Origin: Candidatus Pelagibacter sp.
GTDB taxonomy: Bacteria; Pseudomonadota; Alphaproteobacteria; Pelagibacterales; Pelagibacteraceae
DNA length: 20,707 nucleotides
Direction: 5' to 3'
NCBI GenBank assembly: GCA_017880265.1
Contig: JAFJTK010000088.1
Span: 1 to 20,707 of the forward strand
The first letter of the stretch is position 1. Every line of letters starts with the position of its first letter. This document shows, piece after piece, positions 670 to 13,146 of this stretch. The translations under genes and the position numbers were made by a program. A model generated the notes under the pieces. It saw only the letters and a program-made list of their open reading frames with translations. It had not been told where the DNA came from and searched no databases.

Positions 670-1817
670 TTCTTATAAATCTTACCCAAATAATTTTCTA
701 AAAATTTCTTATTTTTTGTTAATAACTTTAAGCTAATATTTCTAAAAAAAACTATAAGTGGATTGGAGACGTGAAATGCAAATTGATTTAATTTTGATCT
801 ATTATTAATCATTTTTACTTTTGCAACTCTGTTGTCATAAAAATTTTTTTTATCATTTATAATATTATCAAATAACTCTGATGCTCCCTCAATCGATTGT
901 GAGGCTCCTTGAGCAAATGATGGAGGAAAAGCAAAAAATGCATCTCCAAGTAAAAAGATATTTTTACCTGGTTTAAGATAGCCTTTGCTTACAAAAACTG
1001 GGAAGCACTTAATATTATCAATATTTTCTAAAATAGTTGTTGAAAACTCATTTAGTAGTTTATGTTTAATCCCTTTAATGAAAGTTTCTTCTTTAAAAAG
1101 GCTGTAATTGCTGAGCTCTTTTTCTGTTAATTGATATTTTAATACTCCAATAAAATTATAACTTTCATGCGCTTTTTTTATTGGATAAATCACATAATGA
1201 AAATTATGCCCCATAAATAATGAAATATTATTTTCATTTAAATTCTTAAGTTTATTTCTTGAAATATTGCCTCTAATAGCAATGGAATTATTATATGAGG
1301 GCTTTATCTCCTCATTAGAAATTAATGATTTTCCTTTTGAAAAAACACCGTCAGAAATAATTAAATAGTCACAAATTGCTTTATTGTTTTCATTAAAAGT
1401 TAAACATATTTGATCATTTTTTTTTTCAATTTTTTCAATACCGTGATTATACTTAATTACATTATCATTTAATTTATTTTTTAAAAATTCAACTAACTTA
1501 GATCTTTTAAGGGTTGTGTACTTGCAGTCTTTAGAATTAAAATCTGAAATATTTAGATCGCATATTTTTTTTTCTGGTTTAATTGTATAAAAATCAATTT
1601 TCTTAGGGTTAAACTTATCTCTATCTTCTAAAGTATTAAATCCAATTTTATTAAGAAGTTTGATGCTATTAGTTGATAGCTGAATTCCATATCCTTCAAC
1701 TAAATCAATTGAGGTATTTTTTTCATAAATGGTTACCTGATAATCTTGATTTTCTTTAAATAAATTTGCAATAAATAAGCCAGAAATACCCGCTCCAATT
1801 ATTGCGATTTTTTTCAT
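666..1817 (-). CDS. FAD-dependent aromatic-ring-type monooxygenase (UbiH / salicylate hydroxylase-like), substrate unknown
   Basis: This 383-residue protein has the three FAD-binding signatures of class A flavoprotein monooxygenases (PHBH fold). The N-terminal GxGxxG is IIGAGISGLF (residues 6-15), followed by an acidic strand end at YEK. The DG motif is at residues 156-157 (IISDGVFS). The GD motif is at 291-292 (FLLGDAFFAFPPSFAQGAS). Length matches the family. The EGYGIQLSTNSIKLL segment resembles salicylate hydroxylase-like enzymes more than the classical ubiquinone hydroxylases, so the substrate cannot be read from sequence. It starts at an ATG overlapping the mutY stop as ATGA (1817-1814), so it is probably translated with mutY. 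No membrane segment is apparent, so it is presumably cytosolic or peripheral. Its stop codon is interleaved with that of ccrM. Confidence 0.8.
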   Translation of the reverse strand: MKKIAIIGAGISGLFIANLFKENQDYQVTIYEKNTSIDLVEGYGIQLSTNSIKLLNKIGFNTLEDRDKFNPKKIDFYTIKPEKKICDLNISDFNSKDCKYTTLKRSKLVEFLKNKLNDNVIKYNHGIEKIEKKNDQICLTFNENNKAICDYLIISDGVFSKGKSLISNEEIKPSYNNSIAIRGNISRNKLKNLNENNISLFMGHNFHYVIYPIKKAHESYNFIGVLKYQLTEKELSNYSLFKEETFIKGIKHKLLNEFSTTILENIDNIKCFPVFVSKGYLKPGKNIFLLGDAFFAFPPSFAQGASQSIEGASELFDNIINDKKNFYDNRVAKVKMINNRSKLNQFAFHVSNPLIVFFRNISLKLLTKNKKFLENYLGKIYKN

Positions 1818-2797
1818 GAGTGATTTTCTAAATATGAAACAATTTTTTTAGTAAAAGTTGGCAGTGTGTATTTATCTAATTTTTTAGGATCAATCCAATA
1901 AGAAAAAGGCAAAGATTTTTTAATCTTATTAGTTTTAATTTTAATATTCATATTCATATTAGACATTTTAAAATTTAAATTATAGTTAAAGTTTTTAGGT
2001 TTGACTATTTCTTGCATTGGGAAAATATCTAAATTTTTTAAAAAATTAAAATTCTTATTTTTAATTAATAAATATTTTTTCTCTTTTTTATAAACATTAA
2101 GTAAATAATATTTCTCTTTGTTATTTTTTTTTAATTTACTCAAAACAAAATCTTTTTTTTTATAAGATTTACATTTTTCTGAAATAGGACATTGTTCACA
2201 ATAAGGATTAATTGGTTTACATATTAGTGCTCCTAATTCCATTAATGCTTGAGCATAATCACTAGCTCTTAAAGAGGTGCCAAATATTTTTTTTTGTTTG
2301 ACCAAATTATCTTTTTGGATTTGATTTTCATTCTTTAAGTAAAGATATCTTTTTAAAACTCTTTCGATATTACCATCTAAAGGAATAATAGGTTGGTTAA
2401 ATGCAATAGCCATAATAGCGCTTGCAGTATAATCACCAATTCCAGGAAGTGACTTAAGGTCTAAAAAGTTATTAGGTAAATTTTTATTAAAATCTTTGAT
2501 AACAATTTGTGCAGTTTTTTTTAAATTTTTAACTCTTGAATAATAACCAAGTCCCTCCCACAACTTAATTAATTTTTGATCGTTAAATTTTGCAAGAACT
2601 TCTAAGTTTGGAATATATTTTATAAATCTATTAAAATATGGAATTACAGTTGCAACTTGCGTTTGTTGCAACATAAACTCACTAACCAAGGTATAATATT
2701 GCTTTTTTTTAGAGGAAGTTTTTTTTCTCCAGGGCAATGTTCTTTTATGAATATCGTACCAATTGAGAATTTTATTTGTTATTATTAATTCTTTCAT
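1814..2797 (-). CDS. mutY: A/G-specific adenine DNA glycosylase MutY
   Basis: This 327-residue base-excision repair enzyme removes adenine mispaired with 8-oxoguanine. Visible features are the catalytic Glu40 in SEFMLQQTQVATVIPYF, the helix-hairpin-helix LPGIGDYTASAI (residues 118-129), the catalytic Asp141 in PLDGN, and a complete [4Fe-4S] ligand set C193-x6-C200-x2-C203-x5-C209, at nearly the same numbers as the E. coli enzyme. The remaining C-terminus is lysine-rich and would hold the NUDIX-like 8-oxoG-reading domain, which is poorly conserved here. The start is the ATG at 2797-2795, because it places NWYDIHKRTLPWR the same distance from the N-terminus as in E. coli MutY. A longer frame opening at a TTG at 2842 is possible but adds residues with no family counterpart. 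The start codon directly abuts the divergent dciA start (CATATG). Confidence 0.95.
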   Translation of the reverse strand: MKELIITNKILNWYDIHKRTLPWRKKTSSKKKQYYTLVSEFMLQQTQVATVIPYFNRFIKYIPNLEVLAKFNDQKLIKLWEGLGYYSRVKNLKKTAQIVIKDFNKNLPNNFLDLKSLPGIGDYTASAIMAIAFNQPIIPLDGNIERVLKRYLYLKNENQIQKDNLVKQKKIFGTSLRASDYAQALMELGALICKPINPYCEQCPISEKCKSYKKKDFVLSKLKKNNKEKYYLLNVYKKEKKYLLIKNKNFNFLKNLDIFPMQEIVKPKNFNYNLNFKMSNMNMNIKIKTNKIKKSLPFSYWIDPKKLDKYTLPTFTKKIVSYLENHS

Positions 2798-3286
2798 ATG
2801 CAATTTAAAGATAATACTAAGCAGAGAAATAAAACCATTCAAGGTTTAAGATCGTTTAAAGACACTTTGCCGAAGAATGTAAAAAAAATTATAAATAAAA
2901 AAGGACATATTTATTCTGAAACTTTAAATAATTGGAAATATATAGTTGGTGATAACTTATTTAAAGTTTGTTATCCCAAAACATTTAAAAACTCTAATAA
3001 GTTTGGAGTAAGCACATTATTGATAATGGTTAAAAGAGGCCATGAGGTTGACATGGAGTATTCAAAAAAAGACATAATGGATAAAATGAATAGCTTTTTT
3101 GGTTATACAGTGGTTGAAAAACTTAAATTTATAAGTTTTGATGATGAGCAAAAAATTTTTAATAAATCTGACACCAAACAAGAAAATGTCGCAATTAATA
3201 AATACCAAGATAAAATTAATAATGTTAAGAATGATAAAATAAAAAAATCACTTATCGAATTAACCAGGGTCTTTAAAAAAAAATGA
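2798..3286 (+). CDS. dciA: DUF721 protein, probable DnaB helicase loader DciA
   Basis: This 162-residue protein has a DUF721 domain at about residues 20-112, recognised by the pattern around LNNWKYIVGDNLFKVCYP (residues 43-60): the conserved Trp, then IVG, then a Pro entering the KH-like fold. A strand-rich middle and a polar, charged, probably disordered tail (about 117-162) follow. Family knowledge: DciA proteins load or activate the replicative helicase DnaB in bacteria lacking DnaC or DnaI. Position supports the call: DUF721 - DsbA-like - smc next to mutY is a recurrent alphaproteobacterial order. The ATG at 2798 is the only reasonable start; the next in-frame ATG would remove most of the domain. 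There is no room for a leader or ribosome-binding site between it and mutY. The stop overlaps the next start as ATGA, preceded by a run of nine A's. Confidence 0.75.
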   Translation: MQFKDNTKQRNKTIQGLRSFKDTLPKNVKKIINKKGHIYSETLNNWKYIVGDNLFKVCYPKTFKNSNKFGVSTLLIMVKRGHEVDMEYSKKDIMDKMNSFFGYTVVEKLKFISFDDEQKIFNKSDTKQENVAINKYQDKINNVKNDKIKKSLIELTRVFKKK

Positions 3287-3861
3287 AAAAACTTATAGCT
3301 TTTACACTTATATTCTTTAGCAGCATCTCTAGTATTAATGCTGAGGAAATAAAAAGAATATACGTTGGTAACAAAGATGCAAAAATAACTATAATCGCAT
3401 TTGAGTCTTTAACCTGTAGTCACTGTGCAAACTTTCACAAAGATGTATATCCTCAATTAAAAGAAGAATATCTTGATACAGGTTTAGCTAAAATTGAATT
3501 CAGACATTTTCCGTTAGATGTTGCGGCCTTCAATGCTTCAAAAGTTTCACAATGTAAAAACGATGGTGATTCGGCAATTTTAAATAGTTTATACGCCAAC
3601 CAGCAAAAATGGGTTAAAGGCAGTTCCGTAAAAGAAGCAAATGAAAATCTTCAAAAATTCCTTGTCAGTGAAGGTTTTGATCTAGATTTTGAAAAATGTA
3701 TAAATAACAAAGAAATAGAAGACTTTGTTTTAAATGACCGAATAGATGGTGTCAAAAAATTTAAAGTAAATGCTACTCCCACTATAGTCATAAATGACAA
3801 AAAGTTTGAAAAAACTCTAACTTATAAAAATTTAAAAAAAGCTCTAGAAAAACTGATATAA
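3283..3861 (+). CDS. DsbA-family thiol:disulfide oxidoreductase (exported thioredoxin-fold protein)
   Basis: This 192-residue protein has a signal peptide at residues 1-20: KK start, a hydrophobic core, then the likely cleavage site INA-EE. Mature protein should be periplasmic. The active site is C45-S-H-C48 in ESLTCSHCANFH, and the cis-proline loop is NATPTIVIN (Thr165-Pro166). Between them is a helical insert with two further cysteines, C91 and C139, a pair common in the thioredoxin_4/DsbA-like family. The expected role is introducing or shuffling disulfides in envelope proteins; oxidase versus isomerase cannot be decided from sequence. It starts with ATG overlapping the dciA stop by 4 bp and ends 8 bp before smc, so it sits in the same transcript. 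The sub-family, and hence the symbol dsbA, is not certain. Confidence 0.85.
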   Translation: MKKLIAFTLIFFSSISSINAEEIKRIYVGNKDAKITIIAFESLTCSHCANFHKDVYPQLKEEYLDTGLAKIEFRHFPLDVAAFNASKVSQCKNDGDSAILNSLYANQQKWVKGSSVKEANENLQKFLVSEGFDLDFEKCINNKEIEDFVLNDRIDGVKKFKVNATPTIVINDKKFEKTLTYKNLKKALEKLI

Positions 3862-3869
3862 GTTAATGC

Positions 3870-6443
3870 ATGGAGTTTAAAAAAATCCAATTAAATGGAT
3901 TTAAATCTTTTGCAGATAAAACCAATTTTCTAATTGAAGAAGGTCTAACAGGAATAGTGGGTCCTAACGGATGTGGGAAATCCAATATTGTTGAGTCTTT
4001 AAGATGGGTGATGGGAGAAACATCTGCAAAAAGTATGCGTGGCTCTGGAATGGAAGATGTAATCTTTAATGGTACCTCCAATAAAGCTTCCAAAAATATT
4101 GCAGAAGTTTCTATTGATGTAGAAAATAAAAACAATGAAGGACCTGTTCAATATCGAGATCTAGATCAAATAAGTGTTAGAAGAAAAATTGAAAAAGATA
4201 AAGGTTCTAAATTTTATATTAATGATAAAGAAGTAAGAGCTAGAGATGCTCAAATGTTTTTTGCAGATCTATCGACTGGAGCTCACTCACCTTCCATGAT
4301 TAGTCAAGGACGTATTGGAGCTTTAGTAACAGCAAAACCAACTGATCGAAGAGCAATTTTAGAAGAAGCCGCAGGAATTTCTGGTTTACATGTGAGAAGA
4401 CATGAAGCTGAACTAAGATTAGGAGCCGCAGAAAATAATCTTAAAAGAGCCGATGAATTACGAAGACAACAAGAAAAACAATTGGCTAATCTTCAAAAAC
4501 AAGCAGAAGAAGCTACAAAATACAAATTAATTTCTGAAGAAATTAAAAAAATTGAAGCAGGGTTATATTATTTAAAATTATTAGAGATTGATAAAGAGAT
4601 TAAAATTGAAAATGAGATTAACAATGAAGCAGAGGGAGAAGTAGAAGGATTCAACAATAAAATTACTGAGCTCGAAAATTTAATTAAAATAGCAACAGAT
4701 AAAGTATCTCCACTTAGAGAAAAAAATATTGAAAACTTGTCCAGAATTCAAAGGCTAAATCTTGAGCTGCAGAGTTTGGATGAGGAAAATACTAGAATAC
4801 AAGATGAGATAGAGTCTATTAATAAATCAATTAGCACTCTAGATGAAGATATAAATAGAGAAAGAGGAATTATAATAGATGCTAATTCTAATGAAAAAAG
4901 ACTTAAAGAGGAAAAAGCAGATCTAATTGAAATAGACTCTAAATATTTTGAAACTGAAAAACTATCTAATGAAGATTTAGAAAATGCTAAAAAGGAACTA
5001 AAAAAAGAACAAGAAGCAGTAGATGAAGTTGTAAACAACATTGCAGAAGGAAGCATAAATATAAGTTTAGGACCAATTAAAAATGTCAAAAACTCTATAA
5101 ATAGAGCAAAAGAATTAATTGATAGCAATGAAATCCAACAAGCTGTTACCCTATTAGACAGATGTAATATGGAACTTGATAATTTCTTAAATGATTTAAA
5201 AAATGAAAAAAGTAGACAAGAACTTTTAAACGTAAACGAGAAGTCACAAAATATAAAACAACTTCAAGAAAAATATGCTGACGCATATAGTAAAAATCAG
5301 TCAATCAAGAATGAATCAATTAAACGTAACGAAAGAATAAAAACAATTGAAACTGAAATTGAAAGTTGGAAAAATTTATTATCAAATTCAGAAAAAATGG
5401 TTGCAGAATTAATTGAAAGAAAAAATAAACTTTCAGATCAATTAAAAAAATTAGAAAATCAACCTAGAGTTCAAGCAGAGAGAAAAGGACAGATTTCTGA
5501 AAATTTAAGAATTTCTGATAAAGAAAAAGTTGATAACGATATAGTGATTGAAGAGACTGATAAAAGAATAGAAACATTGAGAACTGAGTTAAATGAAATT
5601 CAAGAACAATCTATTCAAATTAGAGAGAGAAAAGCAAGTTCGGGAGCAACTATAGAAGGTCTCCAAAAAAGAAAAAGTGATTTATTAGATAGAATAAATT
5701 CTGAATTAAATTTATCTGAAGATAATATTTTAGAAAATTCTAACTTAAATGGTGTTGAAGAATTGCCAAATGCTATTGATCAGGAAGATGCTTTAGATAA
5801 AAAAAAACAAGAAAGAGAAAGTTTAGGATCTGTTAATTTAAAAGCTGATGAAGAAACTAGCAAATATGAAGATGAAATTAAAAAAATGGAACAAGATCGT
5901 TCAGACTTAGTGACAGCAATAGTAAAATTAAAAGATAGCATTAATGAATTAAATCAAAAAGGAAGAGAAAGATTAATTGAGGCTTTTGAGAAAGTTAATA
6001 GAAAATTTAATGAAGTGTATACAAAACTGTTTAATGGTGGAAATGCTAAATTAGAATTAGTCGATTCAGATGATCCGTTAGAAGCAGGGTTGGAAATGCT
6101 AGTTAGCCCTCCTGGCAAAAGGCTTCAATCAATAACGTTGCTTTCAGGTGGTGAACAAGCGCTAACTGCTTTATCTTTAATTTTTGCAGTTTTTTTAACC
6201 AACCCATCTCCTATCTGTGTATTAGATGAGGTTGATGCTCCTCTTGATGATGCTAACGTAACAAGGTTTTGTAATTTACTTGAAGAACTAATTAAAATTA
6301 CCAATACAAAATTTATTATTGTAACTCATCACGCCCTGACGATGTCTAAAATGAATAGACTTTATGGGGTAACTATGCCAGAAAAAGGTATAAGTCAGCT
6401 AGTAGCTGTTGATTTACAAAAAGCAGAGAGTATGGTTGCCTAA
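3870..6443 (+). CDS. smc: Chromosome condensation ATPase SMC, short form without a recognisable hinge
   Basis: This 857-residue protein has both ATPase half-heads in full. The N-terminal part carries Walker A GPNGCGKS (31-38), WVMGE (46-50) and the Q-loop region SMISQGRIGAL (142-152), followed by RRAILEEAAGISGLH. The C-terminal part carries LGSVNLKADEE (652-662), signature LSGGEQALTALS (758-769), Walker B ICVLDEVDAPLDD (782-794) and an H-loop FIIVTHH (815-821). Between about 175 and 645 the sequence is charged, heptad-like coiled coil. Bacterial SMCs are usually about 1150-1200 residues, with a globular hinge of about 150 residues in mid-chain. Here nothing hinge-like is seen, and residues 341-590 contain only three glycines (394, 401, 540). 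The chain probably turns near 393-420 (GSINISLGPIKN). The frame is unbroken and the heads are conserved, so this looks like a functional short SMC rather than a pseudogene. It lies 8 bp after the DsbA-like gene and 9 bp before atpI. Confidence 0.93.
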   Translation: MEFKKIQLNGFKSFADKTNFLIEEGLTGIVGPNGCGKSNIVESLRWVMGETSAKSMRGSGMEDVIFNGTSNKASKNIAEVSIDVENKNNEGPVQYRDLDQISVRRKIEKDKGSKFYINDKEVRARDAQMFFADLSTGAHSPSMISQGRIGALVTAKPTDRRAILEEAAGISGLHVRRHEAELRLGAAENNLKRADELRRQQEKQLANLQKQAEEATKYKLISEEIKKIEAGLYYLKLLEIDKEIKIENEINNEAEGEVEGFNNKITELENLIKIATDKVSPLREKNIENLSRIQRLNLELQSLDEENTRIQDEIESINKSISTLDEDINRERGIIIDANSNEKRLKEEKADLIEIDSKYFETEKLSNEDLENAKKELKKEQEAVDEVVNNIAEGSINISLGPIKNVKNSINRAKELIDSNEIQQAVTLLDRCNMELDNFLNDLKNEKSRQELLNVNEKSQNIKQLQEKYADAYSKNQSIKNESIKRNERIKTIETEIESWKNLLSNSEKMVAELIERKNKLSDQLKKLENQPRVQAERKGQISENLRISDKEKVDNDIVIEETDKRIETLRTELNEIQEQSIQIRERKASSGATIEGLQKRKSDLLDRINSELNLSEDNILENSNLNGVEELPNAIDQEDALDKKKQERESLGSVNLKADEETSKYEDEIKKMEQDRSDLVTAIVKLKDSINELNQKGRERLIEAFEKVNRKFNEVYTKLFNGGNAKLELVDSDDPLEAGLEMLVSPPGKRLQSITLLSGGEQALTALSLIFAVFLTNPSPICVLDEVDAPLDDANVTRFCNLLEELIKITNTKFIIVTHHALTMSKMNRLYGVTMPEKGISQLVAVDLQKAESMVA

Positions 6444-6452
6444 ACTATATAA

Positions 6453-6728
6453 ATGCCAAAAGATCCGTTCAAAACTCGCTTAGAGATTGCAAAAAGTAAA
6501 ATTTCAAAGAAAAATCTCTATAATAAAAAGGATAATCCATCATCTATTGGAACTGCCTTCAAATTGAGCACAGAATTAGTATCAGCTGTGGCTGTAGGGA
6601 CAATTATTGGGTTTATTTTTGACAAGACCTTTGGTACTAAACCCTGGTTTATATTAATATTTTTTTTTGTGGGTGTGGTTGCTGGAATTACCAACGTAAT
6701 TAGGTCCGCAAAAAATATGCAAAAATAG
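6453..6728 (+). CDS. atpI: ATP synthase accessory protein I (AtpI)
   Basis: This 91-residue protein has a basic N-terminal tail of about 35 residues and two membrane segments, about 39-57 (ending GFIFDKTFG) and 63-84 (FILIFFFVGVVAGITNV). The loop between them carries the GxxxDKxxG-type motif seen in AtpI / ATPase_gene1 proteins. Family knowledge: AtpI is not a structural subunit but assists c-ring assembly or Mg2+ handling, and it is usually the first gene of the Fo or atp operon. That is its position here, 9 bp before atpB. It follows smc by 9 bp, so no separate promoter region is visible for the Fo genes. Confidence 0.85.
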   Translation: MPKDPFKTRLEIAKSKISKKNLYNKKDNPSSIGTAFKLSTELVSAVAVGTIIGFIFDKTFGTKPWFILIFFFVGVVAGITNVIRSAKNMQK

Positions 6729-6737
6729 ATACAATTT

Positions 6738-7472
6738 ATGGCATCAAATCCAATGACTCAATTCAATGTGCACAGAATTGGGCCAGAAATAAAAATAGGC
6801 ACGTTTGATATTTCATTTACAAATGCAAGTTTGTTTATGATTATTAGTTCAGTTGCAATTCTATTAATTTTTAATCTTGGATCAAAAAAAAATTCATTAA
6901 TACCAAATAAAATCCAACTACTAGCAGAACTTAGTTACACATTTGTTTCAAAAATGATTAGTGATACAGCCGGCCTTAAAGCAAAACCATATTTTGCTTT
7001 TATATTTTCACTTTTTATGTTTGTACTTTTTTGCAACATGTTTGGAATGATACCCTATACTTTCACTGTTACTAGTCATATCATTGTAACATTTGTTTTA
7101 GCTGCATTTATTTTTATAGGTGTAACAATTATTGGATTTATGAAACATGGTTTTGGATATTTAAAACTATTTGTGCCAAGTGGGGTTCCTGCAGTGCTAC
7201 TTCCACTGATTGTAGTTATAGAAATAATTTCTTACTTAAGTAGACCAATAAGTTTATCAGTTAGATTGTTTGCTAACATGATGGCAGGTCATACAATGAT
7301 GAAAGTTTTCGGAGGCTTTGTAATAAGTCTTGGAATAGTTGGTGGATGGCTTCCACTGAGTTTTTCGGTTGCATTAACAGGTTTGGAGATCTTAGTTGCT
7401 TTTCTTCAAGCGTATGTTTTTGCAATTTTAACCTGCATCTATTTAAATGATGCATTAAATTTACACCATTAA
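6738..7472 (+). CDS. atpB: ATP synthase Fo subunit a
   Basis: This 244-residue integral membrane protein forms the proton half-channels against the c-ring. The essential arginine is R176 in SLSVRLFANMMAGHTMMKVF (173-190), the strongest family signature. The C-terminal helix carries LEILVAFLQAYVFAILTCIYL, containing the conserved Glu/Gln positions of the channel. The N-terminus (FNVHRIGPEI) is typical of alphaproteobacterial subunit a, and total length is normal. Five or six hydrophobic segments are visible. It is followed after 18 bp by atpE, whose strong Shine-Dalgarno lies in that gap. Confidence 0.96.
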   Translation: MASNPMTQFNVHRIGPEIKIGTFDISFTNASLFMIISSVAILLIFNLGSKKNSLIPNKIQLLAELSYTFVSKMISDTAGLKAKPYFAFIFSLFMFVLFCNMFGMIPYTFTVTSHIIVTFVLAAFIFIGVTIIGFMKHGFGYLKLFVPSGVPAVLLPLIVVIEIISYLSRPISLSVRLFANMMAGHTMMKVFGGFVISLGIVGGWLPLSFSVALTGLEILVAFLQAYVFAILTCIYLNDALNLHH

Positions 7473-7723: not shown

Positions 7724-8314
7724 ATGATTAAAAAAATATATTTTCAGTCAATATTTTTTAGCTTCCTTTTTTCATTGGAAGCTTTTGCAGCTGAAAGCGG
7801 AGGTATGCCTCAATTAAATCCAGAATTTTGGATTTCACAAATCTTTTGGTTAACTCTAACGTTTGGAATTTTGTATATAGTTTTATCAAAATTAATACTT
7901 CCAAAAATTAGTGACAACCTAGAGTCTAGAAAATCACAAATTTTAGAAAATATTGAGGCTGCAGAGAAACAAAGACAAAATAGTGAAGAAAAGCTTAAAG
8001 AATATGAAGAAATTGTTTCAAAAAGTAAGATGGAAGCAAAAAATATTTTTAATCAAGCAAGAGAAAAGGCATTAAAAGACATTAGTGCTAAAAAAGACGT
8101 TCTGGATAAGCAAATTGATGATGAAATTGGCAAGGCAGAACAAGAAATAAAAGAACTACAAAAAGGTGCAGCCGATAAAATTAATAAGATAGCAATTGAG
8201 ACTTCATCAGAATTAATTCAAAAACTTATTGGTGCTGAGGTAAACAACAGTAGTATTTCAGCAATTGTAGATGATTTATCAAGAAGAAGTGGAGATAAAT
8301 ATTATGGCAATTGA
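7724..8314 (+). CDS. atpF': ATP synthase Fo subunit b' (peripheral stalk)
   Basis: This 196-residue protein, annotated atpG or atpX in some genomes, has a signal-like N-terminus (residues 1-22, ending EAFAAESGG). Then comes GMPQLNPEFWISQIFWLTLTF, which is the usual beginning of alphaproteobacterial b' proteins, and a membrane anchor at about 37-57. A long charged helix from about 62 to 170 forms the stator stalk. Having b' and b encoded in tandem is characteristic of photosynthetic bacteria and alphaproteobacteria. Its last 11 bp overlap the start of atpF, which implies translational coupling of the two stalk subunits. Whether the N-terminal leader is cleaved cannot be decided from sequence. 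Confidence 0.92.
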   Translation: MIKKIYFQSIFFSFLFSLEAFAAESGGMPQLNPEFWISQIFWLTLTFGILYIVLSKLILPKISDNLESRKSQILENIEAAEKQRQNSEEKLKEYEEIVSKSKMEAKNIFNQAREKALKDISAKKDVLDKQIDDEIGKAEQEIKELQKGAADKINKIAIETSSELIQKLIGAEVNNSSISAIVDDLSRRSGDKYYGN

Positions 8315-8801
8315 TGCAACTTTTTGGGTAGCAGTTTCATTTGTAATTTTTTTTGGAGCTTTAATTTATCTTAAAATTCCTCAGAAAGTTACTGAGATGT
8401 TGGATAAAATGATATCTGATATCAAAAATGAAATTGATGAAAGTGAAAAGTTAAGAACTGAGGCAAAAACACTGCTAGATAATGCACAGAATAAATTAGA
8501 TACAGCACAAACTGTAAGTAATGAAATTTTAGATGAAGCAAAAAAAGATTCGGACAAATTAATAATTGAGCTAAATGATAAATTTCACAAATCATCTGAA
8601 ATTAAAAAGAATTTAGCTGAAAATAAAATAAGCCAAATGAAAGAAGCTGCTATCAAAGAAATTAAAGATGCGTCAATTAAAATTGCAGTAGACTCAGTTA
8701 AAAAAATTATCACAACTTCCGTTGATAAATCTAAACTTGATGCAGTTTTTCAAAAAAACTTAGATGAAACTAAGGAAGAGTTAAAAAAGATTAACTCATA
8801 A
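8304..8801 (+). CDS. atpF: ATP synthase Fo subunit b (peripheral stalk)
   Basis: This 165-residue protein has an N-terminal membrane anchor (about residues 6-23, WVAVSFVIFFGALIYLKIP) followed by a long amphipathic, highly charged helix, the stator stalk that holds F1 against rotation. The ATG at 8304 was chosen over an in-frame ATG at 8271, because MAIDATFWVAVSF matches the normal N-terminus of b subunits, a GGAG lies at 8291-8294, and the longer form would add eleven unrelated residues. It overlaps atpF' by 11 bp. The F1 genes do not follow; as in other alphaproteobacteria they must be elsewhere. The next gene, crtI, begins after 39 bp. Confidence 0.93.
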   Translation: MAIDATFWVAVSFVIFFGALIYLKIPQKVTEMLDKMISDIKNEIDESEKLRTEAKTLLDNAQNKLDTAQTVSNEILDEAKKDSDKLIIELNDKFHKSSEIKKNLAENKISQMKEAAIKEIKDASIKIAVDSVKKIITTSVDKSKLDAVFQKNLDETKEELKKINS

Positions 8802-8840: not shown

Positions 8841-10298
8841 ATGAATTCTATAGTTATTGGTTCAGGGTTTGGTGGAATTGCAGCTGCACTTAGGCTTAGA
8901 GCTAAAGGTCATCAGGTAACAATAATAGAAAAACATCCTGACTTAGGTGGAAGAGCAAGAGTGTTTAAAAAAAATGGTTTTACGTTTGACGGTGGACCAA
9001 CTGTAATAACAGCCCCCTATTTAATTAACGAATTATTTGATTTATTTAAAAAAGATCCCAAAGATTATATTAAGCTTACTCCTCTTAAAATTTGGTACCA
9101 ATTCATTTTTGAGGACAAAACAAAATTTGATTACTCAGGAAATGAGTCGGAAATGAAAAATCAAATTCAAAATATAAATAAAGAAGATGTAAAAGGCTAT
9201 GAAAGGTTGGTAAATTTTACAAAAAAAATTTTTGATAAAGGTTTTACGGAGCTTGCAGATGTACCTTTTGATAAACCGTTTGTAATGATGCAACAATTAC
9301 CTGCACTTCTAAAACTTAAAAGTTATAAATCTGTGTATTCACTAGTTTCTTCGTATATTAAAAGCGAAAAATTAAGGAGAATGCTAAGCATGCACCCTCT
9401 TCTAGTTGGTGGAAACCCTTTTTCTACGACCTCTATTTATGGACTAATTCTATACCTAGAAAAAAAATGGGGGATACATTATTCGATGGGTGGGACCGGA
9501 AATATTATAAAAGGTTATGAAAAATTAATGAATGAGGTTGGAATAAAGATATTGAAAGAAAGTGAAGTTACCAAGATAATTTCAAAAAATAACAAAATTT
9601 CTGGTGTTCAAATAAACAATGAAAATATTATAGAAGCTGATAACGTAATATGCAATGCAGATCCTCCGGCTGTTTACGAAAAATTATTAAATCAAAATAA
9701 TAATTCACTTTTATTTAATTGGAAAAAAAATCGTATGGAATACTCCATGGGATTATTTGTGTATTATTTTGGAACAAAAAAAGTTTATGAGAACGTTGAG
9801 CATCATACAATCAAGTTTGGTAATAAATATAAAGAACATCTAGAGGATATATTTAACAAAAAAAAATTAAATGAAGATATTAGTTATTATCTTCATAGGC
9901 CATCAGCAACTGATAAATCAATGGCTCCTGAAGGTAATGATTGTTTTTATGTTTTGGTTCCAGTCCCCAACAATCAATCAAAAATTGATTGGAATATTGA
10001 AGGCGAAAAGATGAAAAAATTAGTGATAGAAAAAATGCAAAAGGATTTAATGCCTGATCTTAAAGAAAATATTATAGAAGATTTTTATCTTACACCCGAT
10101 TACTTTGAAAAAGATTTAAATACTAAATATGGTTCTGGTTTTTCTATACAGCCAAAATTTACTCAATCAGCCTACTTTAGATTTCACAATAAATCAGAGA
10201 TATATGATGGTCTTTACTTTGTTGGAGCAGGAACCCATCCTGGAGCAGGAGTTCCAGGCGTGTTGTCTTCTGCGAAGGTATTAGATAAAATCATATAA
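8841..10298 (+). CDS. crtI: Phytoene desaturase CrtI
   Basis: This 485-residue FAD enzyme converts phytoene to lycopene. The N-terminal dinucleotide-binding motif is VIGSGFGGIAAALRLRAKGH (residues 5-24), followed by IIEK and the LGGRARVFKKNGFTFDGGP block characteristic of CrtI-type desaturases. The C-terminal FAD motif is YFVGAGTHPGAGVPGVLSSAK (about 459-479), also diagnostic. Length is typical. The number of desaturation steps cannot be read directly; lycopene as product is inferred from the lycopene cyclase and Blh genes that follow. Its stop overlaps the crtB start (TAATG), so the crt genes are translationally coupled. Confidence 0.95.
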   Translation: MNSIVIGSGFGGIAAALRLRAKGHQVTIIEKHPDLGGRARVFKKNGFTFDGGPTVITAPYLINELFDLFKKDPKDYIKLTPLKIWYQFIFEDKTKFDYSGNESEMKNQIQNINKEDVKGYERLVNFTKKIFDKGFTELADVPFDKPFVMMQQLPALLKLKSYKSVYSLVSSYIKSEKLRRMLSMHPLLVGGNPFSTTSIYGLILYLEKKWGIHYSMGGTGNIIKGYEKLMNEVGIKILKESEVTKIISKNNKISGVQINNENIIEADNVICNADPPAVYEKLLNQNNNSLLFNWKKNRMEYSMGLFVYYFGTKKVYENVEHHTIKFGNKYKEHLEDIFNKKKLNEDISYYLHRPSATDKSMAPEGNDCFYVLVPVPNNQSKIDWNIEGEKMKKLVIEKMQKDLMPDLKENIIEDFYLTPDYFEKDLNTKYGSGFSIQPKFTQSAYFRFHNKSEIYDGLYFVGAGTHPGAGVPGVLSSAKVLDKII

Positions 10299-11149
10299 TG
10301 GCAGATCAAAGTTATTTATCAATATACGCAAAATCATTTAATTGGGCAGGTTTTTTCTTGCCAAAAAAAACTTATTTAAAATGTTCAGCATTGTATGATT
10401 TTTGTAGGGTCGCTGACAATATTGCAGATAGCAATGAAGCAATTGAAATAAAAAAAATAAAATTTTTAGATTTTCAAAATGATTTTAATAATAAAAAATT
10501 TGATAATCCTATTATTAAAAATATGTGGCAACTCATAAATGAGTTTGATATTCCACTAAAAGTCGTTCATGATTTATTAGATGGAATAAATTCTGATATT
10601 CAACAAAGTATAAAATTACTTAAAAAAAAGGATTTATTACTCTACTCTTATAGGGTAGCAGGAACAGTTGGCTTAATGATGGCTAAGATTTTAAGAGTGA
10701 ATAAAAAAAATTCGTTAAAATCTGCAATTGATCTTGGTATTGCAATGCAACTAACAAATATCTCGAGAGATGTTATTGAAGATCTTAATTTTGGAAGATC
10801 TTACATTGATCTAAATTTTGAAGAAATAAGATCTACTATAAAGCTTTCTGAAAGTTATTATGAAAATTCATTCTACTCAATCAAAGAAATTCCATTTGCT
10901 TTTCGTTTTGCTATTTTGGTTGCAAGGAGAGTTTATAGAAAAATTGGTTATAAAATTCTTAAACAACAAAATTTAGAAAATTACAAAAAATCAGGTAAAA
11001 TTTATGTAACTAATATTGAAAAAATAATTGAAACTTTTTGCTCAGTGTATGATCTAATTAAATTATTTTTGATTAACAAAAGTGATAATGATATTGAGCA
11101 TAATCATTCTTTAATTAGGGAAGAAATAAATTTAGATGAAAGAATTTGA
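10298..11149 (+). CDS. crtB: Phytoene synthase CrtB
   Basis: This 283-residue head-to-head prenyl synthase condenses two GGPP into phytoene. The first Asp-rich motif is FCRVADNIAD (residues 35-44) and the second is NISRDVIEDLNFGR (154-167). The YRVAGTVG block lies at 118-125. In the first motif the second Asp of the common DDxxD is Asn (DNIAD), but the two outer Mg2+-binding aspartates remain, so activity is expected. The GGPP synthase that would feed it (crtE or ispA-like) is not in the window. The gene ends 14 bp inside crtY. Confidence 0.94.
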   Translation: MADQSYLSIYAKSFNWAGFFLPKKTYLKCSALYDFCRVADNIADSNEAIEIKKIKFLDFQNDFNNKKFDNPIIKNMWQLINEFDIPLKVVHDLLDGINSDIQQSIKLLKKKDLLLYSYRVAGTVGLMMAKILRVNKKNSLKSAIDLGIAMQLTNISRDVIEDLNFGRSYIDLNFEEIRSTIKLSESYYENSFYSIKEIPFAFRFAILVARRVYRKIGYKILKQQNLENYKKSGKIYVTNIEKIIETFCSVYDLIKLFLINKSDNDIEHNHSLIREEINLDERI

Positions 11150-12200
11150 CTATATAATTATTGGAGGTGGCTGTGCAGGTCTATCTCTTGCCTATGAATT
11201 AAATCTTCACCAAAAATTAAATGATAAAACTTTGGCAATCATTGAGCCTAGGGATAATTATACTAAAGATAAGACTTGGTCTTTCTGGAAAATTTTTTCT
11301 CATAACTTTGAGGATTGTGTCAAAAAAAGTTGGAATAATTTTACTATTAATATACCAAATCATACAAAGCATTTGGAATGCAAAAATACTCCTTACCAAA
11401 CAATTGATAGTGGGTTATTTTACGACAAAACAATTAAATCTTTAAAACAGAATAAAAATATTTTTTTCCTAAAAAATTTAAATGAAATAAATATTAACAA
11501 TTCATTTATTTTTAATAGTGTTGAGAGTACTGCAAACAGTAAAGGAAAGCTGTGGCAACATTTTTCTGGTTTCGAAATAGAGACAAAGAAAGATTTTTTT
11601 GATGAAGAAATATTCAACCTAATGGATTTTGATTGTGAACAAAAAGATAGTGTTCATTTTTTCTATACACTTCCCTATTCAAAAAAAAGAGCGCTTGTAG
11701 AAACTACCTGGATTTCAGATCTCAAAAACTCATCTCTTCAGGATTATGATGAGCAACTTAATAACTATATTAAAAACCATTTAAAAATAAAAGATTTTAC
11801 AATTAACCATAAAGAGGTCGGTGCAATACCTTTATTTAATATAGATTATATAAAAAAGCCTAATCAAATTAATATTGGAACAGTGGGCGGTATGACTAGA
11901 TTAAGTACTGGATATACATTTCTTAATATTCAAGAGCATTCTAAGTATATAAGAAAAAATTTAGATAATATTCAAAATACTAGTTTATTTACACTAGGTA
12001 AAAAATACCAATTTTTAGATAATATATTTCTAAAAGTTTTAAAAAATAATCCAAAAGATATGGGTCAAATTTTTTTTAAAATGTTTGGCTGCCCTTCTGA
12101 AACTGTAATAAATTTTTTATCAAATAAAAGTAATTTATTAGAAGATCTGTCAATTATTTCTAAAATGCCAAAATTAAAATTTTTGAGACAACTTTTTTAA
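11136..12200 (+). CDS. crtY: Lycopene beta-cyclase CrtY
   Basis: This 354-residue flavin-dependent enzyme cyclises lycopene to beta-carotene. Signatures are DYIIIGGGCAGLSLAYEL (5-22) for the nucleotide-binding fold, the CrtY block DKTWSFW (45-51), LWQHFSGFEIE (139-149) and, near the C-terminus, GCPSETVINFLSN. It is slightly shorter than typical CrtY proteins but contains all the recognisable blocks. It starts inside the last codons of crtB (14 bp overlap) and is followed one base later by blh. Beta-carotene as product is supported by the presence of the carotene-cleaving enzyme next to it. Confidence 0.92.
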   Translation: MKEFDYIIIGGGCAGLSLAYELNLHQKLNDKTLAIIEPRDNYTKDKTWSFWKIFSHNFEDCVKKSWNNFTINIPNHTKHLECKNTPYQTIDSGLFYDKTIKSLKQNKNIFFLKNLNEININNSFIFNSVESTANSKGKLWQHFSGFEIETKKDFFDEEIFNLMDFDCEQKDSVHFFYTLPYSKKRALVETTWISDLKNSSLQDYDEQLNNYIKNHLKIKDFTINHKEVGAIPLFNIDYIKKPNQINIGTVGGMTRLSTGYTFLNIQEHSKYIRKNLDNIQNTSLFTLGKKYQFLDNIFLKVLKNNPKDMGQIFFKMFGCPSETVINFLSNKSNLLEDLSIISKMPKLKFLRQLF

Positions 12201-12201
12201 T

Positions 12202-13146
12202 ATGATAAATAATATAAAAAGAATAAACTTAAATCATTCTTTTATTTTTTTTTTATTTTGTAATATTATTTCTTTAATCACTTTTAAAGCTAAAAATTTC
12301 TCAATCTCTCCTCTAATTTGTTTATTATTTATTTTAGTTATCGGGGTATCACATGGATCTCTTGATCATATAAAAGGTAAAAGACTTTTAAAAATTTTTG
12401 ATATTAAAAATGTTTTGTTCTTTTATGTGTCATACATATTACTCGCTATTTTTATAATCCTTATTTGGGTTTTGTTACCAGCAATATCTTTGCTTCTTTT
12501 TTTAGTAGTTGCGTCATATCATTTTGGTAAAGAAGATACTCAATTTTTAACAACAAATAATAATTTAATAAATCAACTATTATTCTTTTTCAAAGGATCA
12601 CTGATTATTCTAGCACCTATGTTTTTTCATTTTAATGAAACAGTTGCAATATATAAATTTTTATTAATTGAAGATGAAGCTTTCTATACAATCTTAGATT
12701 ATATAGAAACTAATAAGATCCTCTTGATTGGAATTGTTTTAAGTACTTTATCAAGTGTTCTATTATTCATAAAAGAATTTGAAATTAAAAAATTTGTAAT
12801 TTTTCTAGATTATTTTTCAATTATTATTTTAAATTATTATCTTTCACCCTTAGTAGCGTTTACTTTATATTTTTGTTTTTTACATTCTTTAAGACACACT
12901 ATTACTTTGATATTTGAAATAGATAATTTTGATTTTAATAGTGGTTTAATTAAATTTTTAAAAAAAGCACTACCACTTACAATTTTAACAGCTATTTTCT
13001 GCTTAATAAGTTTGTTTTTTTTAAACAATATTTATGATTTAAACAGTTCTATTTTAAAAGTGATATTTATAGGTTTGGCGTCTTTAACCTTTCCTCATAT
13101 ATTGCTCGAATATTTATTAGAGAAATATGAAAAACAAAGCAATTAA
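12202..13146 (+). CDS. blh: Beta-carotene 15,15'-dioxygenase, Brp/Blh family (retinal-forming)
   Basis: This 314-residue, very hydrophobic protein has about eight membrane segments. Family knowledge: Blh cleaves beta-carotene symmetrically into two retinals, the chromophore of microbial rhodopsins. The conserved metal-binding histidines are visible: H51 and H56 in GVSHGSLDH, H107 in SYHFGKED, H228 and H232 in FLHSLRHT, and H299 in LTFPHILLE. It is the last retinal gene of the crtI-crtB-crtY-blh block. Its final 20 bp overlap the ispH start, which couples retinal formation to isoprenoid precursor synthesis at the level of translation. No opsin gene is in the window, so the rhodopsin partner is inferred. 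Confidence 0.93.
   Translation: MINNIKRINLNHSFIFFLFCNIISLITFKAKNFSISPLICLLFILVIGVSHGSLDHIKGKRLLKIFDIKNVLFFYVSYILLAIFIILIWVLLPAISLLLFLVVASYHFGKEDTQFLTTNNNLINQLLFFFKGSLIILAPMFFHFNETVAIYKFLLIEDEAFYTILDYIETNKILLIGIVLSTLSSVLLFIKEFEIKKFVIFLDYFSIIILNYYLSPLVAFTLYFCFLHSLRHTITLIFEIDNFDFNSGLIKFLKKALPLTILTAIFCLISLFFLNNIYDLNSSILKVIFIGLASLTFPHILLEYLLEKYEKQSN

Follow-up and report, generated by a model that had tools for sequence, protein, structure and literature searches.

An smc gene at the ancestral locus encodes an SMC without a recognisable hinge in the SAR11 order Pelagibacterales

The DNA examined here, referred to as the window, is a stretch of 20,707 nucleotides from Candidatus Pelagibacter sp. 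(assembly GCA_017880265.1, contig JAFJTK010000088.1, positions 1 to 20,707). It belongs to the SAR11 lineage, whose cells are among the most numerous in the sea. The window carries an smc gene, an open frame beginning with ATG, whose product, P0001, has the 857 residues given in the original prediction, a reading made from the sequence alone. P0001 matched the model TIGR02168 (SMC_prok_B, chromosome segregation protein SMC) with 670.7 bits, above its cut-off of 567.35, and both halves of its ATPase head aligned with the solved Smc head 3zgx (E 1.9e-92), which we take to be that of Bacillus subtilis. Examination of the translation bore out the predicted intact heads. The Walker A, signature and Walker B motifs lay at the positions predicted (Table 1) and the Q-loop was found at Q146, so that both head halves and all head motifs of a bacterial SMC of the SMC_prok_B type are present. 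Relatives with a named organism were Candidatus Pelagibacter, and the best 80 of 462 genome loci were titled Pelagibacteraceae, Pelagibacterales or Candidatus Pelagibacter. Below, "the order" denotes the one to which G001 belongs, in our reading Pelagibacterales; G001 is the genome that carries L059 (Candidatus Pelagibacter ubique HTCC9565).

The hinge is regarded as a core part of SMC proteins, serving dimerisation, ring closure and DNA entry. The original prediction had seen none in P0001 and had counted three glycines in residues 341-590; there are exactly three (G394, G401 and G540). The Pfam profile SMC_hinge (PF06470) gave no match in P0001 even at E≤10. On the other hand, PF06470 found a hinge in just 93 of 289 genomes of the class Alphaproteobacteria, was silent in the control genome of Caulobacter and missed the hinge of L131, a short SMC from outside the order. 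As it misses genuine hinges of the same class, it is weak as a sole test and we rejected it as the deciding one. We therefore built an alphaproteobacterial hinge profile, which serves as the decisive test. The profile comprised 131 positions and was made from 18 long canonical alphaproteobacterial SMCs (18 of 20 fetched stretches; L187 and L195 were dropped, the longest frame picked not being smc). When each sequence was left out in turn, 18 of 18 hinges were recovered at 158-204 bits, and L131 and a second short SMC from outside the order, L132, neither of them in the profile, scored 92 and 77.5 bits. Among 32 SMCs of the order, 24 including P0001 gave no row at E≤1000 and the other eight scored at most -0.2 bits.

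A second profile, A3, was made from 17 of the 18 long hinges and those of L131 and L132 (19 rows) and run against whole genomes. None of 248 order genomes matched, and the same search revealed no split or relocated hinge gene in them. In the class, 185 of 289 genomes matched, among them the genomes supplying the 19 rows, which match by construction. When the two lists were compared by eye, 198 class genomes had an SMC match and 13 of these had none to the hinge. The 13 are four order genomes (G001, G102, G205 and G291), G032, and eight whose SMC frames, as far as seen, were all partial (157-506 residues; G025, G052, G140, G186, G221, G224, G286 and G288). In the remaining 91, scoring three candidates for each genome gave no SMC at E≤1e-20. 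By profiles with positive controls, P0001 thus lacks the mid-chain hinge of bacterial SMCs, and at the sensitivity of these profiles the hinge has been lost from the chromosome-organising SMC in all full-length copies examined of the order.

The short form is common to the close relatives. P0001 had matches at E≤1e-20 in 227 of the 248 order genomes, and among the matches listed the full-length frames had 799-891 residues and no smc of normal length appeared. Three listed frames were shorter (G524 and G492, contig end, and G383, 533 residues). A search with SMC_N covering 11 genomes showed one full-length SMC apiece in nine order genomes and in G039 and G162, with no second full-length SMC among the matches listed for them. 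The partner genes scpA and scpB, whose presence the original prediction had proposed to check, were each found in 10 of 10 related genomes of the order and are adjacent in G001. Sites resembling parS with at most one mismatch occurred in 10 of 13 genomes (eight of ten Pelagibacterales, G322 and G039), compared with 2 of 13 for a reversed-pattern control, which is suggestive of parS-like sites in these genomes.

A tree of the head sequences grouped the order's hinge-less SMCs in one clade with 100/100 support. The arrangement mutY, DsbA-like gene, smc, atpI and atpB was kept both around canonical smc genes (L206, L207) and around short ones (L208, L210). L209 had the same arrangement, except that no atpI match was seen; L205, in which an opposite-strand frame had been picked and there was no smc match, was left out of the count. 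The short SMC of SAR11 is therefore an orthologue at the ancestral locus.

Table 1. Features of the smc gene and its neighbours in the window
Feature	Position	Strand	Basis
Hinge-less smc gene, 857 aa (P0001)	3870..6443	+	Open frame, ATG start; TIGR02168 match
N-terminal half of ATPase head, residues 1-165	3870..4364	+	Alignment to solved Smc heads and canonical alphaproteobacterial SMCs; boundary set by us
Walker A GPNGCGKS, residues 31-38	3960..3983	+	Read in translation; invariant in 26 sequences
Head-proximal N arm, residues 166-345	4365..4904	+	Collinear with canonical SMCs
Outer arms and tip, residues 346-484	4905..5321	+	Occupies the place of canonical outer arms and hinge
Probable apical helical hairpin, residues 409-436 (SINRAKELIDSNEIQQAVTLLDRCNMEL)	5094..5177	+	Predicted from sequence; register-derived apex near 418
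Head-proximal C arm, residues 485-690	5322..5939	+	Alignment to canonical SMCs
C-terminal half of ATPase head, residues 691-857	5940..6440	+	Alignment to solved Smc heads and canonical SMCs; boundary set by us
ABC signature LSGGE, residues 758-762	6141..6155	+	Read in translation; invariant in 26 sequences
Walker B ICVLDE, residues 782-787	6213..6230	+	Read in translation; I782, C783, L785, D786 and E787 invariant in 26 sequences
mutY-like gene (HhH-GPD), conserved smc neighbourhood	1814..2797	-	PF00730; synteny
dciA-like gene	2798..3286	+	PF05258; BLAST match only in L210 among stretches compared
DsbA/thioredoxin-like gene, directly upstream of smc, conserved neighbour	3283..3861	+	PF13462; synteny
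atpI-like gene, directly downstream of smc, conserved neighbour	6453..6728	+	PF09527; synteny
ATP synthase subunit a (atpB) gene, named by eye, conserved neighbour	6738..7472	+	53-59% identity, six other stretches

Farther along the window, positions 8841-13146 hold a four-gene carotenoid-to-retinal cluster, consisting of an amine-oxidase-family crtI-like gene (named by eye) and genes for phytoene synthase, lycopene cyclase and beta-carotene dioxygenase (by Pfam). On one side of it lies the gene at 8271-8801, whose position suggests an ATP synthase b-type gene, and on the other a LytB/ispH gene. In L208, LytB follows the counterpart of the gene at 8271-8801 and the four genes are absent, so that the cluster looks inserted in the window.

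We then located the missing sequence along the chain. By BLAST, residues 1-352 of P0001 were collinear with the N-terminal part of L146 and residues 461-856 with the C-terminal part of L137, and about 108 residues of P0001 stand in for about 405 canonical ones, among them the hinge (509-639 in L185). A profile alignment extended the collinearity outward, to about residue 400 and from about residue 446; the net loss relative to a canonical SMC was about 300 residues by either method. The original prediction had spoken of an even loss of sequence, and this did not hold: the loss is limited to the hinge and outer arms, with 1-352 and 461-857 collinear with canonical SMCs. In 32 sequences of the order, 343-347 residues aligned to positions 1-345 of P0001; the proximal C arm had a length of 205-215 and the C head one of 167-169, while the middle stretch (346-484 in P0001) had 80, 93-94, 134-135, 139-140 or 165-166. 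Nearly all of the length variation in the order thus falls at the tip. When the tree was computed with the tip left out, the tip size class (up to 820 residues, or more) switched at least five times, and a single lineage of the 798-800-residue forms was rejected by the approximately unbiased (AU) test on a tree without the tip columns (p = 5e-11). P0001 differed from L066 or L064, and L158 from L168, by one 29-residue and one 30-residue block on opposite strands of the arm. Repeated resizing of the tip may come from repeated deletion or from recombinational exchange of tips.

The 3.5-residue periodicity was low in windows covering the tip (1.7 for 385-440 and 1.0 for 413-468). Heptad periodicity was present in 245-384, 469-552 and 637-720 and weak in 161-244 and 553-664. 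Since windows of the C arm within 553-664 were equally low (2.2 to 0.4), this is weak evidence that the tip may be something other than plain coiled coil. The original prediction had read residues 341-590 as coiled coil apart from a probable turn and hairpin; a hairpin near the tip is still probable, and the tip may depart from plain coiled coil.

Short or hinge-less SMCs also occur in other Alphaproteobacteria. L131 (from G162, with a protein named MarineAlpha5_Bin5 among its relatives) and L132 (from G039) have 864-882 residues, the same locus and short arms, and differ from the SAR11 form in retaining a hinge, although a divergent one. The head tree placed both among the long alphaproteobacterial SMCs. 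Their arm shortening therefore looks separate, and they are unsupported as evolutionary intermediates. In a second order (G032 and G541-G543; L235-L238), the SMCs of four of four genomes had 803-817 residues and gave no row with the hinge profile; at the G032 locus (L234), DsbA-like, atpI-like and atpB-like neighbours were recognised by eye only. The tree separated this order from Pelagibacterales, with a single origin not rejected (AU p = 0.34 and 0.36), and it possibly represents an independent loss of the hinge. Within it, L238 is exactly seven residues short at each of two places, 291 in the N arm and, in the C arm, 498 relative to L235 (500 relative to L236). Compared with L235, this is a natural shortening of the arm by one heptad, with one deletion on each of the opposite strands.

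The strand offset of 20 given by this pair of seven-residue deletions was used to compute the apex of the arm. In P0001 it fell on residue 418, in the motif KELIDSNE. The same motif stood at the apex of the 798-residue forms, which follows from accepting the 29- and 30-residue blocks; the order of G032 and some other forms had no KELIDSNE-like motif at the computed apex. The resulting arms had about 263 residues in P0001, 234 in the 798-800-residue forms, 239-242 in the 809-814-residue forms, 264-266 in the 859-864-residue forms, 274-275 in the longest forms and 236-243 in the order of G032. With the same boundaries, which we set ourselves, the arms of the canonical L185 had 342 and 346 residues. 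In the available part of a study of Smc arm length (PMC5344682), natural lengths have modes at 238, 341 and 515, possibly also at 163 and 423, and engineered Smc is viable with arms of 253-267 residues, among other ranges. Taking into account our own setting of the boundaries and the forms that fall outside this last range, agreement with the published lengths is only suggestive. In the segment 409-436, seven positions (I410, K414, E415, L416, I417, A425 and L429) were conserved at 0.82-1.00 over 17 sequences despite a low mean for the segment. The core of the hairpin thus seems to be kept, without sign of a specific, hinge-like interface.

We propose that SAR11 has an orthologous condensin SMC that works with ScpA and ScpB and in which a short segment has replaced the hinge; to this explanation as a whole we assign a probability of about 0.6. 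Its broader part, a functional SMC-ScpAB free of a hinge, we hold to be very probably correct. On this view the common ancestor of the order would have exchanged its hinge, and with it the outer portion of both arms, for a short segment. Each subunit would double back on itself into an antiparallel coiled-coil arm, about 263 residues long and capped by a bare helical hairpin close to residue 418, ATP engagement and an ScpA bridge would hold the heads together, and the ATPase cycle would drive DNA loading and translocation as in Smc-ScpAB. The role of the hinge in pairing the arms may have passed to contacts of the apical hairpin and the neighbouring arms, in principle as in RecN, and such contacts would hold less strongly, and depend less on sequence, than a hinge does. 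Our preference is for pairing through the tip and along the arms, with help from the engaged heads and from ScpAB; we give it about even odds, and a complex joined at the heads only is its main rival.

Three other explanations have to be weighed against this proposal. Imperfect single-cell assemblies, and the streamlining for which the SAR11 lineage is known, would be compatible with a gene that is truncated, decaying or misassembled. However, the same architecture recurred in the best 80 of 462 loci, with full-length frames of 799-891 residues among the matches listed. The ratio of nonsynonymous to synonymous substitution (dN/dS), estimated from up to 300 pairs sampled among the smc of the window and its relatives (59 loci of the 63 tried), was 0.033 in the N head, 0.045 in the N arm, 0.101 in the outer arms and tip, 0.075 in the C arm and 0.014 in the C head; dS was near 1.1, so these ratios are rough. 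Low values in every region point to purifying selection on a gene that is not decaying, in line with the original prediction, and we give truncation or decay almost no credence. We place just as little weight on a Rad50/SbcC- or RecN-like protein that is not an SMC orthologue. Those families likewise have no SMC hinge, but Rad50 models scored at most 64 bits on P0001 against 670.7 for TIGR02168, locus and tree place P0001 with the alphaproteobacterial SMCs, no hinge came to light in the 248 genomes, and the 11 genomes searched with SMC_N showed no second full-length SMC among the matches listed. P0001 and 31 other sequences of the order contain no CXXC, and a zinc hook at the apex was ruled out by its absence from these 32 sequences. 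A hinge that has diverged beyond the reach of our profiles is somewhat less remote, though still very improbable. Alphaproteobacterial hinges do diverge, as the poor yield of PF06470 in the class and its failure on L131 illustrate. Against this, the class profile gave 77.5 and 92 bits on the two short SMCs outside the order and no row or at most -0.2 bits on SMCs of the order, and in several forms the outer arms and tip have only 80-94 residues, fewer than one 131-residue hinge.

More serious is a complex joined at the heads only, in which SMC monomers meet through their ATP-engaged heads and the ScpA/ScpB bridge and the tips stay open or loosely apposed. The apex is the part most variable in sequence and length, the 798-residue forms retain just 80 residues between conserved arm landmarks, and scpA and scpB are present, all of which would fit. 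Speaking against it are the seven tip positions conserved between the two size classes and the requirement for hinge dimerisation in B. subtilis (PMC5344682, in the part available), and on balance we consider it unlikely. Several observations also count against our own proposal. According to the same source, Smc is left non-functional when hinge dimerisation is abolished. The apex (396-440) was the least conserved region in the 857-type rows (0.575, compared with 0.70-0.97 elsewhere), the outer and tip region had the lowest conservation of the regions over 32 rows of the order (0.512), and the segment 409-436 lay in the lower 15% of 28-residue arm windows (mean 0.57 over 17 sequences). In canonical alphaproteobacterial SMCs it is the hinge that is the better conserved (0.675), the outer arms on either side of it reaching 0.44-0.45. 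Were the tip a conserved interface, the apex would be expected to stand out by high rather than low conservation. Arms of 234 and 274-275 residues lie outside the engineered window of 253-267, and other size pairs (L160-L170, L163-L177, L161-L175 and L162-L176) do not align as two equal blocks. Finally, 21 of 248 order genomes had no SMC match. Two of these from the order of G001, G314 and G351, gave none even with all candidates scored, which may reflect missing contigs. That the condensin of SAR11 does without any hinge dimerisation, its subunits linked through the heads and ScpAB and touching along the arms weakly if at all, is for us a tentative and rather doubtful view.

Compared with canonical Smc-ScpAB (TIGR02168; about 1150-1180 residues in Alphaproteobacteria), the SAR11 SMC shares the heads, the head-proximal arms, the locus and the scpA and scpB genes, but is without a hinge and, by our boundaries, has arms of about 263 residues where the canonical ones have about 344. 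A "hinge-less" SMC clade was reported in 2025 from marine Actinomycetes (PMC12153180). In the accessible text of that report, its members resemble the SAR11 form in having heads and coiled coil and neither hinge nor CXXC, are abundant in the ocean and do not occur beside a regular SMC. Compared by description only, the SAR11 SMC differs in origin, with Pelagibacter relatives and an alphaproteobacterial tree position and locus; the words SAR11, Pelagibacter and alphaproteobacteria are absent from the main text of the report. A literature search that left most subscription papers and all preprints outside found, by title and start of abstract, no other naturally hinge-less bacterial SMC. The SAR11 form so adds to a kind already reported, the hinge-less SMCs of marine actinobacteria. 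Among engineered proteins, the B. subtilis mini-Smc and Smc(zinc hook) are the relevant likeness. As far as the available text of PMC5344682 goes, arms of 253-267 residues are viable and the Rad50 zinc hook functionally replaces the Smc hinge, so that the hinge fold is replaceable; those proteins keep a strong dimerisation domain, whereas the SAR11 SMC has no recognisable one. RecN is also SMC-like with a short coiled coil and dimerises through apical helices. Unlike the SAR11 SMC, it is a repair protein with a coil about one quarter of SMC length, three apical helices and no known accessory proteins (PMC4255302, in the part available), and the arm of P0001 is not a short coil of that kind. 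No MukB model was among the best 25 of 36 NCBIfam matches listed, no separate search for MukB having been made.

A dominant order of the ocean that keeps smc, under selection, together with the ScpAB genes but without a recognisable hinge offers a natural test of what the hinge does. Its size variants, with arms repeatedly resized at the tip, are a natural counterpart to the arm-length series engineered in B. subtilis. A possible separate loss in the order of G032, together with the reported actinobacterial clade, would make hinge loss recurrent. If the SAR11 condensin indeed works without hinge dimerisation, a closed, hinge-bearing SMC-kleisin ring would not be needed for chromosome organisation, and the length of the arm, rather than the hinge, would be the conserved working part.

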